56,540 bases of DNA. Source: Candidatus Methanomethylophilaceae archaeon (lineage in GTDB: Archaea > Thermoplasmatota > Thermoplasmata > Methanomassiliicoccales > Methanomethylophilaceae). The translations under genes and the position numbers were made by a program. Below the pieces are notes generated by a model, which saw only the letters and a program-made list of their open reading frames with translations, searched no databases and had not been told where the DNA came from. The stretch covers positions 1 through 56,540 of the forward strand of contig JAFVZY010000124.1 in NCBI GenBank assembly GCA_017507885.1. Direction: 5' to 3'. This document shows positions 4,600 through 12,204 of the stretch, piece after piece; positions within the stretch are counted from its first letter, which is position 1; each line of letters opens with the position of its first letter.

Positions 4600-6645
4600 T
4601 TATACCTCTTTAGTTGCTTTTGCGTTTGAAATCGTTTTGTTACGTTTGATTTTAAGGGGATTATACTCGGTTCCTCCTCCATCGAAGAAGATGTTCATGA
4701 GCTCGACCATCTGCAACCTGAGACTGTGCAGTCCGGCGGACAGGATGGCGAGAGTCCAGATGACAAGGTGGAGGAAGGAGAACAGAAGAACTGCGACGAT
4801 GATCGCGACGATGCTCTCGGTACCTCCGAGCATGTTCAACACCATGTCGAGCGCGATGTAGTTGAATGCAAGAGCCATACCGGCCTTGGACATTCCAATT
4901 GCGGCAAGACGAGTGTAGGACAGAACGTTACCGATGATTCCGGGCAGCTCCAGGATGGCCTGGATACCCTCGTGTTTGAAGTTCATTGCAATCTCGATGA
5001 TCACGAAGACCGCTCCGAGCGCCAGGGGAATAAGGTTGGGCTCAAAGCTCTGTCCCATAACAAGAATCATTGCGATTGCGTAACAGATAAGAACCATTCC
5101 AGCGAAGCCGAAAACCCAGCCTCCCTTCTCTTTGAACGCCTCTTTGAATCCGTGCTGGATCGTCGCGTTGTACATGGAGCATACGCGTCCGATGGCCAAG
5201 TGGGCGATACCGATGTAGACGGACAGTTTGAGGAGGAATCCGACATGGAAGAGTTTTCCGATACCGGTTCCATAGGGGACGATACCCTCGAAGATGGGCG
5301 AAAGCTCCACTCCAAGGACCATTTCCCAAGACTGTTCGATACCCTCGACCATATGCGAGGATGAACAGAAGTGCATTCCCAGACATTCTCCGAAGAAGAA
5401 GAATCCGAAGATGAATGCCCAAATTCCGCCAAAGAACAGAACGGTGGCGATTGCACGCCAGTCTTTGTGATGTGTCACCTTGAGACCGTATGCTCCCAAG
5501 ATGATGAAGGGGATGGCGTATCCGACGTCTCCGACCATAAGCCCGAAGAACATGGGAAGGAAGATCGCGATCAGGATGGTAGGGTCAATCTCCTGATATT
5601 TGGGTACGGACACCAGTTTGGTGCAGTACTCGAACTCCTTCACACACTGTCCGTTGCTGAGCTTAGAGGGAACGGTCTGGAACCTCTCCTCCTGCTCCTC
5701 CGCCTCGTGGATGGTCCTTCCGCGCTTCTCCTCGACGACCTCGACATAGGTGCCCTCGACCTTGGTCTCGAGCTCGTTCTTGACGAGTTCGACCTTGGCG
5801 GTGGGGACCCACGCATCGATCACGAAGGTGTAGTCGCTGTTCGCGATCCTGAGCGGGATCTCTCCCTTCTGGACCTCGATGGAAAGCTCCTCCTCGGAAG
5901 CTTTGAGGAAATCTTTGTGTTTTTCAAGAAGTGCCTCGATATCTTTCGAAACGTTCTCCAGATCGGCCTCGCATGCGGCGAGGTCGCGCTCGACCTTGGC
6001 CAGAGCGTTGAGTGCGGATCCCTCGATGGGGGGTACCGCGATCTCGGAGAATCCGCATTCGGAAAGGGTGGAAAGGACGCTGTCCTTGTCCTCGACCTTG
6101 GCGAACACGGCGACGACGTTGTCTCCCTTCTTCTCGGGGGAGAAGAAGACCTCACAGCCCTGAAGGGCGGAAGTGGGGTCCTCGTCAACGGTTCCGACCA
6201 TTGCAACGATACTCCTGTAACCGGAGTAGAGTTCAAGATCGACATCGATTTTAGAAAGAAGCTCAAGATTCTTCTTGGTAGCGTTTAACTCGGTGATTCT
6301 CTGATTGAGATCATTCCTCTTGTCGAGAACGAGCATGACCTCGTCTTCAACAAGTTCGACGCTGTCAGATGATATCTGGCTCTTGATCTCTTCCTCGGGA
6401 ATGACTCCGGTGGCCGTGGTTGCGGTCACACCGAGGTCCTTCTCCATAGCACGCACCTTCAGCAGCCTCTCGGATGCCTTAGGTGAGTATGGGCGGGGTG
6501 TCCCGAGGGAGAAACCTTCATCCGCGTCGACGGTATGATCGATCAGGTGGATAGCCTTGACTGCATAGATGGCCTCGATGGCCTCGTCCATGTGAGTCTT
6601 GGTACCCACGATCACAATCCTACTCATCGACTCAGGAAGTAACAT
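4600..6645 (-). CDS. atpI: A-type ATP synthase subunit I (membrane stator)
   Basis: Membrane stator subunit (681 residues), equivalent to V-ATPase subunit a, which forms the ion half-channels against the K ring. Residues 1 to about 340 are a soluble, partly coiled-coil cytoplasmic domain; the rest carries about seven or eight transmembrane helices, starting with TILIAIFLPMFFGLMVGDVGYA. The conserved SYTRLAAIGMSKAGMALAFN helix carries the essential Arg. The start MLLPESMSRIVIVG was chosen because family members begin with a similar stretch; it overlaps the end of atpH by 14 bases. Confidence 0.95.
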   Translation of the reverse strand: MLLPESMSRIVIVGTKTHMDEAIEAIYAVKAIHLIDHTVDADEGFSLGTPRPYSPKASERLLKVRAMEKDLGVTATTATGVIPEEEIKSQISSDSVELVEDEVMLVLDKRNDLNQRITELNATKKNLELLSKIDVDLELYSGYRSIVAMVGTVDEDPTSALQGCEVFFSPEKKGDNVVAVFAKVEDKDSVLSTLSECGFSEIAVPPIEGSALNALAKVERDLAACEADLENVSKDIEALLEKHKDFLKASEEELSIEVQKGEIPLRIANSDYTFVIDAWVPTAKVELVKNELETKVEGTYVEVVEEKRGRTIHEAEEQEERFQTVPSKLSNGQCVKEFEYCTKLVSVPKYQEIDPTILIAIFLPMFFGLMVGDVGYAIPFIILGAYGLKVTHHKDWRAIATVLFFGGIWAFIFGFFFFGECLGMHFCSSSHMVEGIEQSWEMVLGVELSPIFEGIVPYGTGIGKLFHVGFLLKLSVYIGIAHLAIGRVCSMYNATIQHGFKEAFKEKGGWVFGFAGMVLICYAIAMILVMGQSFEPNLIPLALGAVFVIIEIAMNFKHEGIQAILELPGIIGNVLSYTRLAAIGMSKAGMALAFNYIALDMVLNMLGGTESIVAIIVAVLLFSFLHLVIWTLAILSAGLHSLRLQMVELMNIFFDGGGTEYNPLKIKRNKTISNAKATKEV

Positions 6646-7665: not shown

Positions 7666-8484
7666 GTGAACCCGGAGAACAGGAATCTCGCCATAGGCAT
7701 CGCGGTTGTGATGATCGTGATCATCGGAGGATATGCCGCACTCATCAACTACACGGGCCTGTCCACACCGTTCAGCGTGGTCATGTCCGAAAGCATGCAA
7801 CACGATCCGTACGAATCAAGGATAGGTTGCATAGACACGGGGGACGTCGTCATCGTGAAGGAGGCGGATGCGGATGAAATCCAGAGTTACATCGAAGGCA
7901 CGGTCACCGGCCACAGGAGCTTCGGGGACTACGGTTCCGTCATAATCTACGAAAGAGGATTCGACCAGAACCCCGTTATCCACCGCGCGATAATATGGTT
8001 GGACTGGGACGGTTCCAAGTGGAGTTCCCCCGACCTCGTGGATTACACGGGAGAATGGTACTGTGCGGAAGGCAACTCCAGATCCACCAACCCGTACAAT
8101 CTCGAAGGGATGCTCCACCTCAAGGACGTGACGGCATCCGGGAAAAACGTCACCGTGAATCTCGACAGAATGACGAAGAACAGCGGATACCTCACCATGG
8201 GCGACAACCCGATAGGGAACACCAACTTCGACCAGACCACGGGAATCGCTGATGGACCGGTTCCAATGGAAAAGGTGAAATCCATACCTATCGCGGAGAT
8301 ACCGTGGATAGGTGCGGTGAAAGTCTCGATGAAAGGGGACAACATGGAACACGCACCCAACAGCATCCCCTCTTTGCTCATGACCATCGTGACGATATTC
8401 TCCATAATCATCCTGATCGACGTGTTGAACCACAAAAACACACTCGCGAAGGCAAAAGAGGAGAAGGGGAAGTACAGGTTCTGA
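7666..8484 (+). CDS. Signal peptidase I, archaeal type
   Basis: Membrane-bound peptidase removing signal peptides from exported proteins. Residues 7-29 form the N-terminal membrane anchor. The catalytic serine is Ser43 in SESMQ, and His106 in the NPVIHRAI segment takes the place of the bacterial general-base lysine, as in archaeal and ER-type enzymes. TMGDNP gives the conserved aspartate region. A second hydrophobic helix ([18 protein letters not shown]) near the C-terminus makes this a two-anchor form of 272 residues. The start is GTG at 7666; another GTG two bases earlier runs straight into a stop. It is divergent from the dCMP deaminase gene. Confidence 0.9.
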
Positions 8485-8492
8485 GGAACCGT

Positions 8493-8543
8493 ACCCCCCC
8501 GCCCCTCCATTTCCACTGGAACTTCCAACAAGGTGTATCCCCC
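8493..8543 (-). repeat. Left arm of 51-bp inverted repeat, full ORB element
   Basis: Read on the minus strand this arm contains GTTCCAGTGGAAATGGAGG followed by GGCGGGGGGG. It matches the arm at 10450-10500 at 46 of 51 positions, with 31 consecutive identical bases (8493-8523 versus 10470-10500). The TTCCAGTGGAA dyad followed by a G-string is the known layout of archaeal origin recognition boxes bound by Orc1/Cdc6. Its G-string points away from the cdc6 gene, toward the signal peptidase stop nine bases away. Confidence 0.8.
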
Positions 8544-8707
8544 ATCAGAGACACGGGAATCAGAGACGTTTTCAAGCACGATCGATGATGAAACACACAT
8601 CCGAATCGATTATTTTCAATCATGAATCATCAATTTCGAAATGAAACATCCGAAAAACAACACGGTTTTTCAAAAGAAGAATGATCGGAAGAATTTTTTC
8701 GAGTTTT

Positions 8708-8718
8708 TTCCACTGGAA
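8708..8718 (-). repeat. Mini-ORB dyad
   Basis: A perfect TTCCACTGGAA dyad, with an A-run on the minus strand after the dyad (GGAAAAAACTCG). It lacks the G-string, so it resembles a mini-ORB. It closes the AT-rich part of the intergenic region. Confidence 0.6.
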
Positions 8719-8949
8719 CCGGAATGGAAACACGGGACAGGAGAACAATCTGCAATGGAAAAGATTCCACAGAGGGATACAATGGACAAAACAGCACCCC
8801 ATACACAGGAAATTCACCCGATGATTCGAATAAATACACAACGGATAGAACAAAAACGAAAAGAATACGGGGGACGGTCGAGAATCAGCTCCTCTCTAAT
8901 TCCCAACCGAATGCCCGTAAGGGTATTCCGTATTTGTATTTGATGCGAA

Positions 8950-10188
8950 TCAGAAATCCAAGGTCGTCTGTTTTGGAGGCCTGTATGATTCCAGATCTTT
9001 GAAAATCTCATCCGATTTCACCATGCCGACGATTTCCTTGGGCGTGTTAAGTTCAATCTCCTTGGTACGACCCGCTCTACCGAACGATTTCACCCTGGCA
9101 TGGACGATACCCAACATATCCAATTCTGAGATCAATCCGGCCACCCTCCTCTGTGTGAGTGTGGATTGACCGATGACCTCGCAGATCCATTTGTATGTCG
9201 TGAATACGTCCCCCGTCGTCATGACATCCATCCCTTCCTCAGTGTTTTTGATGACGCTCATCAGAACGGTTTTGGATTGGACGGTCAGGGTCTTGATCAC
9301 TTCGGACACGGCATCCAATTCGATCTTGTTCTTTGCGGATTTCACATGTGCGGCGGTCACACGGTTGTCACCGTTGCGTTCGGCAATATCGGCCGAAATT
9401 CTGAGGAGATCCAACGCTCTTCTCGCATCACCCATCTCCTGTGCGGACAGTGCGGCACAATAAGGGATGACATCATCGTCGAGGAGTTCCGTATCGAATG
9501 CCTCGATGGCTCTTTCATACAGGATGTCCTGGAGTTGGTTGACGTTGTATGGCGGGAAGATGATCTTCTCCTCACCCAATCTGCTCTTGATTTTGGGGCT
9601 GAGGAATTCCGTGAACTTCGCATTGTTCGTGATTCCGATGATCGAGACGCGTGAGGAATTCAGAACCTCGTTGATGGTTGTAAGATAATAGAATATGTCG
9701 TCCCCGTTTTTCTGGAACGAACGATCGATCTCGTCGAGGACAACGATGAAAATCTTGTCCTCCGTGTCTATGTACGCAGTCAGTTCAGCGAAGATCTTGT
9801 CGAGACTCCATCCCGTGAAGGGTATCCTCTTGCTGGGGTCGGTGATAATCTGGTTCGCGATGTTGTACAGGATACCGTACGGTGTATCGACGACCTCGCA
9901 GTTGACGTATATGAATGCACAGTTCTCCCTGTTCGGATCTGCTTTCTTCAATTCCTTTCCGATGTAGTTCATGACGGCCGTTTTACCTGTTCCCGTCTTG
10001 CCTATGATGAGGATGTTTGATGGTTTGTCCTTGGAAAGCGATGGTGCGATGATCTCCACGATCTCGTTGATCTTGTCTGTCCTGTGCGGGAGTTTGTCGG
10101 GTATGTATGATGATTGAAGTATCTTTTTGTTTTTCACAATGACGTTTCTTTTCTGGATGTATTGTGTGAAAACGTTGGGTTCAGTCAT
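8950..10188 (-). CDS. cdc6: Orc1/Cdc6 replication initiator
   Basis: Origin-binding AAA+ initiator of 412 residues that recognises ORB sequences and loads MCM. Walker A is GKTGTGKT at 63-70 and Walker B is VVLDEIDR at 149-156; sensor 1 lies in ISIIGITNNAKF-type sequence (SRVSIIGITNNAKFTEFL). The C-terminal winged helix (about residues 310-412) includes WICEVIGQSTLTQRRVAGLI. It lies between two inverted full ORB elements. Its TATA-like CTTATAT at 10227-10233 is only about ten bases from a mini-ORB, so autoregulation is plausible. The ATG at 10188 follows a GGTGATG ribosome-site-like sequence. Confidence 0.97.
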   Translation of the reverse strand: MTEPNVFTQYIQKRNVIVKNKKILQSSYIPDKLPHRTDKINEIVEIIAPSLSKDKPSNILIIGKTGTGKTAVMNYIGKELKKADPNRENCAFIYVNCEVVDTPYGILYNIANQIITDPSKRIPFTGWSLDKIFAELTAYIDTEDKIFIVVLDEIDRSFQKNGDDIFYYLTTINEVLNSSRVSIIGITNNAKFTEFLSPKIKSRLGEEKIIFPPYNVNQLQDILYERAIEAFDTELLDDDVIPYCAALSAQEMGDARRALDLLRISADIAERNGDNRVTAAHVKSAKNKIELDAVSEVIKTLTVQSKTVLMSVIKNTEEGMDVMTTGDVFTTYKWICEVIGQSTLTQRRVAGLISELDMLGIVHARVKSFGRAGRTKEIELNTPKEIVGMVKSDEIFKDLESYRPPKQTTLDF

Positions 10189-10242
10189 CTCATCACCGTT
10201 GCGATGTCTCCCTAAATTGGTTTTCGATATAAGCGTTTGTAG

Positions 10243-10253
10243 TCCAGTGGAAA
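10243..10253 (+). promoter_or_regulatory. cdc6: Mini-ORB at the cdc6 promoter
   Basis: GTCCAGTGGAAATTTCG carries the right half and most of the left half of the ORB dyad (TCCAGTGGAAA), differing in the first base from TTCCAGTGGAA. It sits just upstream of the cdc6 TATA-like box (10227-10233, minus strand), so Orc1 bound here would contact the promoter. Both an origin role and a repressor role are possible. Confidence 0.55.
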
Positions 10254-10349
10254 TTTCGACATTTTTTCCTTTACCTATGGATTGCCATTATGCGGATATT
10301 AAATAATGGGTCTGTAATATCGAAATCCAACCATCAGGAGGTTTGAAAA

Positions 10350-10436
10350 ATGAAAGGTTGGCTTGTTATCGGAGCTTGCATCCTCGGAATTGCAGCTTTT
10401 GTCGGTATCCTCTACCTCGTAGGCACTCCCGTCTGA
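10350..10436 (+). CDS. 28-residue single-span membrane peptide
   Basis: An ATG preceded by a near-perfect Shine-Dalgarno AGGAGGT (10336-10342) eight bases upstream opens a 28-codon frame ending in TGA. The product, MKGWLVIGACILGIAAFVGI plus LYLVGTPV, is one hydrophobic transmembrane helix with a Lys at its N-terminal end. A TATA-like ATATTAAATAA lies at 10296-10306. The strong ribosome site and clean topology argue that it is translated. No family was recognised. It lies inside the origin region, 34 bases before the right-hand full ORB. Confidence 0.7.
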   Translation: MKGWLVIGACILGIAAFVGILYLVGTPV

Positions 10437-10449
10437 GTGTCGTGAGAAA

Positions 10450-10500
10450 GGGGGATATCCCTTGTTCCGAGTTCCAGTGGAAATGGAGGGGCGGGGGGGT
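10450..10500 (+). repeat. Right arm of 51-bp inverted repeat, full ORB element
   Basis: Contains GTTCCAGTGGAAATGGAGG then GGCGGGGGGG reading on the plus strand, identical over 31 bases to the left arm at 8493-8523 but inverted. The G-string points away from cdc6. The arms are separated by about 1.9 kb that contains cdc6 and the small membrane peptide. Confidence 0.8.
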
Positions 10501-10531
10501 TGCATGTGAACCGCACGCTCCGCCCTTTAAC
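10498..10531 (+). promoter_or_regulatory. Promoter-like element shared with position 37951
   Basis: The stretch GGTTGCATGTGAACCGCACG followed by CTCCGCCCTTTAA closely matches 37951-37983, with one single-base gap on each side and about 27 of 34 positions alike. It ends in a TATA-like CTTTAA about 31 bases before the ATG of the downstream gene, the same geometry as at the other copy. It abuts the G-string of the right ORB. Confidence 0.45.
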
Positions 10532-10561
10532 TATTTTCCGTGTTTTTTCTCATCGATCGTC

Positions 10562-10846
10562 ATGGTCGACCGCAACTATCTGCTCATTTCATCCGTCGTG
10601 TGCGTGGTTTTGCTGTTCTCGTATTTCCACGATCCGTCTTCGCAGTATGAGATGGATTATTCCGGGATTGTGCACGACATCCGTGAGTCGTCTTCGGGAT
10701 ACACGTTTCAATTGGACACTTCCAGTGGAACATTCAGATGTTTCCATCCCGCATGTCCTGTGGAACTCGGATATTATCGTGTGGATGGGGAGTTCTCCGA
10801 CGACGGGAGCATCCTGTTCGTTTCCGATATGTTTCTAATCGGGTGA
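10562..10846 (+). CDS. Membrane-anchored OB-fold-like protein, unknown function
   Basis: A 94-residue protein. Residues 4-20 are a hydrophobic anchor (NYLLISSVVCVVLLFSYF), followed by a beta-rich domain: YSGIVHDIRESSSGYTFQL, then GTFRCFHP, then YYRVDGEFSDDGSILFV. This strand pattern resembles a small OB fold of the nucleic-acid-binding type. The ATG at 10562 was preferred over an upstream frame because the anchor begins there and a CTTTAA box lies 31 bases upstream, implying a near-leaderless mRNA. An ORB dyad lies inside the gene. The OB assignment comes from pattern reading only. Confidence 0.7.
   Translation: MVDRNYLLISSVVCVVLLFSYFHDPSSQYEMDYSGIVHDIRESSSGYTFQLDTSSGTFRCFHPACPVELGYYRVDGEFSDDGSILFVSDMFLIG
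10720..10730 (+). repeat. ORB-like dyad inside the OB-fold-like gene
   Basis: A perfect TTCCAGTGGAA dyad within coding sequence (codons for TSSGT), without a following G-string. Because it is coding, it could be chance, but it lies between two other dyads in the same 400 bases. Confidence 0.4.
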
Positions 10847-10855
10847 TGTATTGTC

Positions 10856-10870
10856 GTTTCCATTGGAAAC
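10856..10870 (+). repeat. ORB-like perfect palindrome before tiaS
   Basis: GTTTCCATTGGAAAC is a perfect palindrome around a central T, containing the ORB dyad TTCCATTGGAA at 10858-10868. It ends 11 bases before the tiaS start and nine bases after the stop of the upstream gene. It may mark the right edge of the origin or control tiaS. Confidence 0.5.
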
Positions 10871-10881
10871 GGTGTTTCGGA

Positions 10882-12204
10882 ATGTATGTGGCTGTGGATG
10901 ATACTGACTCCGTGAACGGGAATTGCACGACCTACCTCGCAACCGAGATCATCCGCGAGTTGGATGATTTGGATTTGATCGGGAATCCGCGTCTGGTGCG
11001 TTTGAATCCGGCCGTTCCATGGAAGACCCGTGGAAACGGTTCCCTCGTGATGAGGTTCGGCCACGGTGTCGGTGAAGGCAGGTTGATCGGGAGCATCGGG
11101 GGGGAGGACGTGTTATGTCACGATCGCTGTTCATCCTGGGAGCCCGATCCCGAATCCCTTCTCGAAAGGATCATCCCTCTCGTGGATTCCAATCATGAGG
11201 ATGAATCCGATCCGGGCGTTCTGGTTTCAAGGGTGAAACCCCCCAACCGCATGTATTGGAGAGGGGTCCGTACGATCCTGTCGCGGTCCGATGTGGACCC
11301 CGTCATCGCCGGGATGGGTGCGCACACGTATGAGATCGGACTCGGTCGCGGTCTGATTGGTTGCACATGCGGCATGGCATGGCGGCCTCGCGACTACACC
11401 TATGAGCTCCTCTCGTATCGCCCGCGCGATCGTTGGGGTACCGAGCGCAGGTATGTACCGTCGACCATCTGCGATGTGGAACACGGGATCCCCACGACAT
11501 TCAACAGCTGGGAGGACCGTTCCGGGAAGGTCGCCATGGTGCCGTCCACGCCCTGTCCCGTGATGTACGGCCTCAGGGGCGATTCGCAGGATGATCTCAT
11601 CAAAGGATACGGCATGATCGAGACCGAACCGCTGGATAGATGGATGGTCTTCCTGACGAATCAGGGTACGGACGATCACATCGTACGCAACCCGTCCGTT
11701 CTGATTCCCAATCAGTCGTACCTCATAACCGGTACGGTCTCATCATACGCCGTGCATGTGCCTGGTGGTCACACGTTCCTTGATCTCGACACCCGTTTCG
11801 GAACGATTCCGTGTGCGGCATACGAGCCTTCCAAGGAGTTCCGTCATCTTTTCGATTGGTTGGTCCCCGGGGATTCCGTCGAGGTCATGGGTGAGTTGAG
11901 GGAGAATCCTAGGACCCTCAATGTGGAGAAACTCCATCTGGTGTCTACGGTTCCCGAATTCCGCAAAACCTCCAATCCCATCTGCCCCACGTGCTCCCGT
12001 ACGATGAAATCGATCGGTTCGGGTCAGGGTTTCCGTTGCAAGAAGTGTCATCTCAAATCCAGCAAACCCGTCTTCGAAGAGGTCGTCCGTCAAGCCGTCC
12101 CGGGTTGGTATGAGCCTCCAACGTCCTCCAGAAGACACTTGTCCAAGCCATTGAAACGCATGGGCGAGGTCCAAAGGGTTGAGTTCGTCAATGGTCGTAG
12201 TTGA
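10882..12204 (+). CDS. tiaS: tRNA(Ile2) 2-agmatinylcytidine synthetase TiaS
   Basis: Attaches agmatine to C34 of the CAU-anticodon isoleucine tRNA so that it reads AUA. From the ATG at 10882 the product has 440 residues, normal for TiaS. The N-terminus YVAVDDTDSVNGNCTTYLA is the conserved kinase-like motif. An OB domain follows in the C-terminal third (LITGTVSSYAVHVPGGHTFL), then a zinc ribbon starting near residue 368 (CPTC and CKKC pairs). A frame extending upstream to 10738 overlaps the previous gene and lacks conservation. The palindrome at 10856-10870 lies just before the start. Confidence 0.93.
   Translation: MYVAVDDTDSVNGNCTTYLATEIIRELDDLDLIGNPRLVRLNPAVPWKTRGNGSLVMRFGHGVGEGRLIGSIGGEDVLCHDRCSSWEPDPESLLERIIPLVDSNHEDESDPGVLVSRVKPPNRMYWRGVRTILSRSDVDPVIAGMGAHTYEIGLGRGLIGCTCGMAWRPRDYTYELLSYRPRDRWGTERRYVPSTICDVEHGIPTTFNSWEDRSGKVAMVPSTPCPVMYGLRGDSQDDLIKGYGMIETEPLDRWMVFLTNQGTDDHIVRNPSVLIPNQSYLITGTVSSYAVHVPGGHTFLDLDTRFGTIPCAAYEPSKEFRHLFDWLVPGDSVEVMGELRENPRTLNVEKLHLVSTVPEFRKTSNPICPTCSRTMKSIGSGQGFRCKKCHLKSSKPVFEEVVRQAVPGWYEPPTSSRRHLSKPLKRMGEVQRVEFVNGRS

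Follow-up and report, generated by a model that had tools for sequence, protein, structure and literature searches.

The window, i.e. the whole analyzed stretch of 56,540 nucleotides from a Candidatus Methanomethylophilaceae archaeon, carries an orc1/cdc6.1 initiator gene on the reverse strand at positions 8950-10188. The assignment rests on NCBIfam, domain and solved-chain matches: the product reached 506 bits with the ORC1-type equivalog NF001625 (cut-off 501), Cdc6 lid and winged-helix domains were found in it, and its nearest solved chains, 2QBY_A (Cdc6 homologue 1) and 2V1U, were matched over the full length. These two chains come from Sulfolobus and Aeropyrum initiators whose crystals contained origin DNA. 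An orc1/cdc6 initiator gene is expected at an oriC1-type origin, and this locus has one; a second, distant cdc6 paralogue (23% identity) is located on contig C108.

The gene is enclosed by an inverted repeat of 51 nt (8493-8543 and 10450-10500), whose arms are 90% complementary (46/51) with a longest identical run of 31 bases, as an earlier sequence-only reading of the region had described. That reading had also recognized in the repeat a dyad followed by a G-string, the layout of an origin recognition box (ORB), and both arms indeed contain the full ORB core TTCCAGTGGAAATGGAGGGGCGGGGGGG, on the reverse strand at 8494-8521 in the arm downstream of cdc6 and on the forward strand at 10472-10499 in the upstream arm. 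The two G-strings are directed outward, away from cdc6, and the initiator gene lies inside the ORB pair; this point too had been read correctly and proved to be a trait of the whole clade. The full ORB, defined as the dyad, 3-6 nt and GGGG, was searched for over the window's own metagenome-assembled genome (MAG; G000, 1.64 Mb in 135 contigs), and exactly two occurrences were returned, both of them the arms bracketing cdc6.1. The locus therefore holds the two or more inverted ORBs (dyad plus G-string) that define an oriC1-type origin. The dyad by itself, TTCCANTGGAA, occurs at 17 sites in the genome, 6 of which belong to the cdc6.1 locus. As the full ORB is present only twice, both times here, the prospect that the dyad might be equally common elsewhere, which would have spoken against an origin, did not materialize.

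Six exact TTCCANTGGAA dyads were found in the window, at 8261, 8511, 8708, 10472, 10720 and 10858, where shuffled sequences lead one to expect 0.10. One bare copy without G-string, TTCCACTGGAA, lies within the bracket at 8708-8718 (+), and other exact bare copies lie outside it, at 8261-8271 (+) within a signal-peptidase-like ORF, at 10720-10730 (+) within the small ORF 10562-10846, and at 10858-10868 (+) shortly before tiaS, about 14 bp ahead of the likely start of that gene at 10882 as placed by the onset of the homologue alignment. The copies at 8708, 10720 and 10858 had been listed beforehand, while the one at 8261 had been overlooked and the one reported at 10243 turned out, in a mismatch search, to be a one-mismatch form, GTCCAGTGGAA, at 10242-10252 (+) in the divergent promoter region. 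The array does extend into coding DNA as regards the bare dyads without G-string (8261, 10720) but not as regards the full ORBs. The side downstream of cdc6 carries a single full ORB together with two bare dyads, and no cluster of many ORBs of the oriC2D type occurs on that side of the locus. Over the loci of the clade, 20 bare dyads were counted at 800 bp or less from cdc6 and none in the 657 kb beyond. Two TTCCATTGGAA dyads, 83 bp apart, were also noted on contig C47 of G000 (4660-4670 and 4743-4753), far from both cdc6 genes.

Two stretches inside the bracket are candidate unwinding regions. The first, at 8558-8710, is 66.7% AT compared with 43.8% for the window, and its best 100-mer ranks second most AT-rich in the window; the second is the divergent promoter region between cdc6 and the neighbouring small ORF (10189-10349, 62% AT). 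The AT-rich composition of 8558-8710 had been recognized from the start, but the stretch is not conserved among relatives, because in most of them the downstream ORB lies 60 bp or less from the cdc6 stop codon. AT profiles taken across the brackets of the clade revealed no unwinding element at a fixed position, so that AT-rich stretches, although present inside the bracket here, have no conserved place across the clade.

Besides cdc6.1, the bracket contains an unannotated small ORF (10350-10436, +), divergent from cdc6 and recognized by its conservation, which encodes 28 residues, MKGWLVIGACILGIAAFVGILYLVGTPV, with one hydrophobic segment. Most of the bracketed genomes have counterparts of 25-30 residues; the six outgroup loci yielded none. 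Divergence by codon position was 0.28, 0.22 and 0.56, and a GGAG-type ribosome-binding site usually precedes the ORF; it is therefore very probably translated and under purifying selection, although it gave no Pfam match. Outside the bracket, one flank holds the signal-peptidase-like ORF, so named from sequence alone, a deaminase gene and A-ATPase genes, and the other holds a small membrane ORF, tiaS and a thiolase gene. The small ORF on the latter side (10562-10846, +), between the upstream ORB and tiaS, combines an N-terminal hydrophobic segment with a beta-rich domain, showed no confident Pfam match and remains with tiaS in a flipped locus of the kind described below.

The sequence-only reading had proposed a comparison of the same locus in related genomes, and 91 cdc6.1 loci from about 90 genomes were compared, 80 of them forming one Methanomethylophilaceae clade that includes the window. 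ORBs are conserved on both sides of the gene: the bracket, with one outward ORB on each side of cdc6.1, was found at 69 of the 80 clade loci, the remaining 11 being mostly accounted for by contig-end cuts, rearrangements or one arm under threshold. In the bracketed loci the upstream ORB lies about 220-480 bp before the cdc6 start codon, and in 56 of the 69 the downstream ORB lies within 60 bp of the stop codon. Outside the clade on the Cdc6 tree fall the early-branching genera g24 and g25 as well as six genomes from other families; in all of these, ORBs occur only upstream and share one direction, toward the gene. Since these outgroups have upstream ORBs only, the bracket is, as judged from this distribution, a derived state. 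Two variations within the clade were also recorded. In L165 (G069) and L166 (G070) the downstream full ORB is tandemly duplicated, with the copies 70 bp apart (D48/D118 and D57/D127). In genera g5, g6 and g23 (e.g. L066, L067, L171 and L190) the dyad TTCCAGTGGAA has become TTCCATCGGAA or TTCCACCGGAA in both arms, possibly reflecting a shift of Cdc6 specificity.

The likeness between the two arms was evaluated over the 28 core bases in 30 disjoint sister pairs, 23 of which were informative. Arms within one genome differed on average at 1.5 of the 28 bases and arms across two sisters at 2.8; within-genome likeness was favoured in 22 pairs and the reverse in one (p = 6e-6), and when downstream arms were shuffled within genera the observed likeness was never reached. 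The window itself provides an example: GGGGCGGGG stands in each of its arms at the place where other members of the genus have T. By this test the arms evolve in concert. The excess likeness is concentrated in the ORB; on the inner side it continues in mild form for about 17 nt, and on the outer side it breaks off abruptly at +23. Exact runs common to both arms measure 12-46 bp among the genomes, and in G005, G030 and G068 identical runs of 43-46 bp reach past the ORB, an observation in favour of gene conversion between the arms; co-evolution of both cores with a single Cdc6 could, however, produce the same co-variation.

The orientation of cdc6 was then scored relative to tiaS, the deaminase gene and the signal-peptidase-like ORF at the 91 loci. 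The gene order of the window was found at 84 loci and the flipped order at six, one being undecided, and parsimony counted five changes on the Cdc6 tree. In three genomes of three genera (G060, G071 and G121, the last at locus L021) the flip is seen from both sides: the small membrane-peptide ORF moved along with cdc6, while tiaS and the deaminase gene stayed put, as did the signal-peptidase-like ORF in G060 and G071; this last ORF was not found in G121. Because the small ORF moved with cdc6 and the neighbours stayed, the inverted unit extends from ORB to ORB, with only cdc6 and the small ORF as its content. Inversion of these two genes relative to tiaS, the deaminase and the A-ATPase genes was recorded at L021 and L158 (G121) and at the loci of G060 and G071 (L154, L167 and L194). 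For G060, G071, G079 (the flipped sister of G071) and G121 we relied on gene order, since homology on the outer sides was insufficient to establish the junction in G060, weak in G121 and ambiguous in the other two. In G082 and G114 the flip is visible from the tiaS side only; there, what lies beyond the downstream ORB corresponds in sequence to what lies beyond the upstream ORB in congeners of standard order. The other side carries genes that we read as transposase-like, and a tblastn search with the G082 sequence upstream of cdc6 found no relatives. Among the few loci that have no bracket, no flips were seen. Taken together, gene order and the Cdc6 tree indicate that the cassette between the ORBs has reversed its orientation in place several times in evolution. 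A second cdc6.1-like fragment was noticed in G114 (C38:15054-15956); as it is 82% identical to the protein of the window and unlike those of its own genus, it suggests contamination of that MAG.

Bacterial recombinase-driven invertible cassettes are segments flanked by inverted repeats. The archaeal loci resemble them in that inverted repeats bound the inverted segment and both orientations occur among relatives. They differ in that no dedicated recombinase was found in or beside the cassette, and in that the orientations differ between species, each species being represented by one genome.

GC skew was analyzed in the complete congener G030, of which 20 kb were sampled every 42 kb. Breaks occurred at about 530 kb and at 1362 kb, half a genome apart, with cdc6.1 located at 525 kb; the skew contrast between arms at cdc6.1 was the largest among all origin positions tried (permutation p ~0.003), and the sign was reversed at the cdc6.2 position. 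The contrast at cdc6.1 in G007 is of the expected sign but weak, with the best-fit origin about 190 kb away, and G069, with half of its genome sampled, showed no GC-skew change. Neither G030 nor G007 showed a signal in GGGT, AT or keto skew. The cdc6.2 locus was considered as an origin and rejected, no dyad having been reported on C108 and the skew having the wrong sign in G030 and G007.

The layout with ORBs on both sides of orc1/cdc6.1 is already known. For 'Ca. Methanomethylophilus alvus', Table 2 of Borrel et al. 2014 lists ORBs upstream and, inverted, downstream of orc1/cdc6.1, and the ORB consensus of the order is given in the same paper (PMC4153887). As in that species, our locus has ORBs on both sides that follow the consensus GTTCCAGTGGAAATGG-AGGGGT, and only one of two paralogues has ORBs; 'Ca. 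M. alvus' has two ORBs per side, whereas here each side has a single full ORB, with bare dyads in addition, and the consulted part of that paper does not treat arm co-variation, gene inversion or the small ORF (PMC4153887). In Haloarcula hispanica oriC1, two inverted ORBs with G-strings at their outer ends, as here, surround an AT-rich element; both ORBs are needed and the outward polarity of the G-strings is essential (PMC3936714). There, however, cdc6 lies outside the ORB pair, while about 1.6-2 kb including the gene separate the ORBs in our clade. Several haloarchaeal cdc6 genes have ORBs on both flanks (PMC3528665), as in oriC2/oriC2D and oriC3-cdc6D* of H. hispanica (PMC3936714, PMC3528665), but cdc6D, with one ORB-like element per side, failed to replicate a plasmid (PMC3528665). 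In a literature search that left most subscription journals outside, nothing specific on inversion or conversion at archaeal origins came up, and we did not find the derived bracket, the enclosed peptide gene, the concerted arms or the in-place inversions described.

The ORC1-type gene, the full ORBs unique to the locus, the conservation in the clade and the skew switch in G030 support the earlier reading of the locus as a chromosomal replication origin of the oriC1 type, with the displaced fit in G007, the flat skew of G069, the variable AT-rich element and the plasmid failure of cdc6D as points against it. That the ORBs are mere operators for cdc6 transcription, with the origin elsewhere, appears hardly credible: initiators often regulate themselves, and the upstream arm and the dyads are indeed near the cdc6 promoter, but the downstream arm stands behind the stop codon, which is not an operator position, and the skew of G030 switches at the locus. 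The main rival holds that the working origin consists of the upstream ORB and the promoter-side dyads only, the downstream ORB being regulatory and titrating Cdc6 in the way suggested for oriC2D. Negative control of oriC2 is indeed exerted by a region rich in ORBs downstream of cdc6E (PMC3936714), and upstream ORBs evidently suffice in the outgroup families, which have no others. Nevertheless, oriC2D comprises 11 ORBs and most genomes of our clade have a single full ORB downstream, and arms that are near-identical, mirror-placed and conserved together suit equal roles, which makes this account rather unlikely.

As for the arms and the flips, a stronger contender, which we still regard as less probable than recombination, is that the arms co-vary only from fitting the same Cdc6.1 and that the inversions are rare chance events, some of them caused by insertion elements. 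The sharp end of the excess likeness, strongest inside the ORB, and the transposase-like genes of G082 and G114 agree with it, but the long identical runs exceed the ORB, the mild excess continues inward, and the three clean flips, in three genera, are ORB-bounded, their cassettes carrying no transposase. The flipped loci might also be artefacts of assembly across the inverted repeat, given that short-read MAGs make up most of the genomes and that exact runs are common to both arms. Such an artefact is unlikely in G071, because this genome is closed (1,937,883 bp) and agrees with ISO4-H5 in size and in having two downstream ORBs; PCR-based gap closure and Sanger sequencing were used to complete the ISO4-H5 genome (PMC5011839). 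In addition, the exact runs in the arms of G060 and G121 measure only 12 and 23 bp, shorter than a read, and we consider artefacts very improbable as a general explanation.

We consider it probable that the locus is an oriC1-type origin in which outward ORBs bracket an initiator cassette, and that its arms recombine and sometimes flip the cassette. Orc1/Cdc6.1 would bind both full ORBs, with its winged-helix domain on the dyad and its AAA+ domain on the G-string, and the bound ORBs together with the scattered bare dyads would build a complex that melts nearby AT-rich DNA. This complex might then load MCM for two diverging forks, firing within or beside the bracket. As the ORBs face outward on both sides of the gene, the initiator gene and the small membrane-peptide gene would form one cassette inside the origin, the gene being carried as a passenger. 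The ORBs would double as short inverted repeats, whose recombination may homogenize the arms and occasionally invert the cassette, and a flip should be tolerated since both ORBs, the initiator and the replichores are left unchanged. A bolder version appears unlikely to us, namely that the origin is an invertible initiator cassette with the ORBs as recombination sites, a self-contained unit of replicator and initiator whose boxes are kept identical by conversion, perhaps flipping within populations in a manner coupled to initiation, with the peptide as a regulator or membrane anchor.

In the usual picture of archaeal origins, the initiator gene stands next to a short AT-rich element that is surrounded by ORBs. 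The clade of gut methanogens described here departs from it as a whole, by a derived arrangement with the initiator gene inside the ORB pair, and the conserved peptide beside cdc6 offers a concrete candidate for a membrane factor linked to replication. The natural flips and co-varying arms lend themselves to testing which parts of an archaeal origin depend on orientation, whether the sequences of initiator and ORB evolve together, and whether recombination takes place between short inverted repeats at origins.
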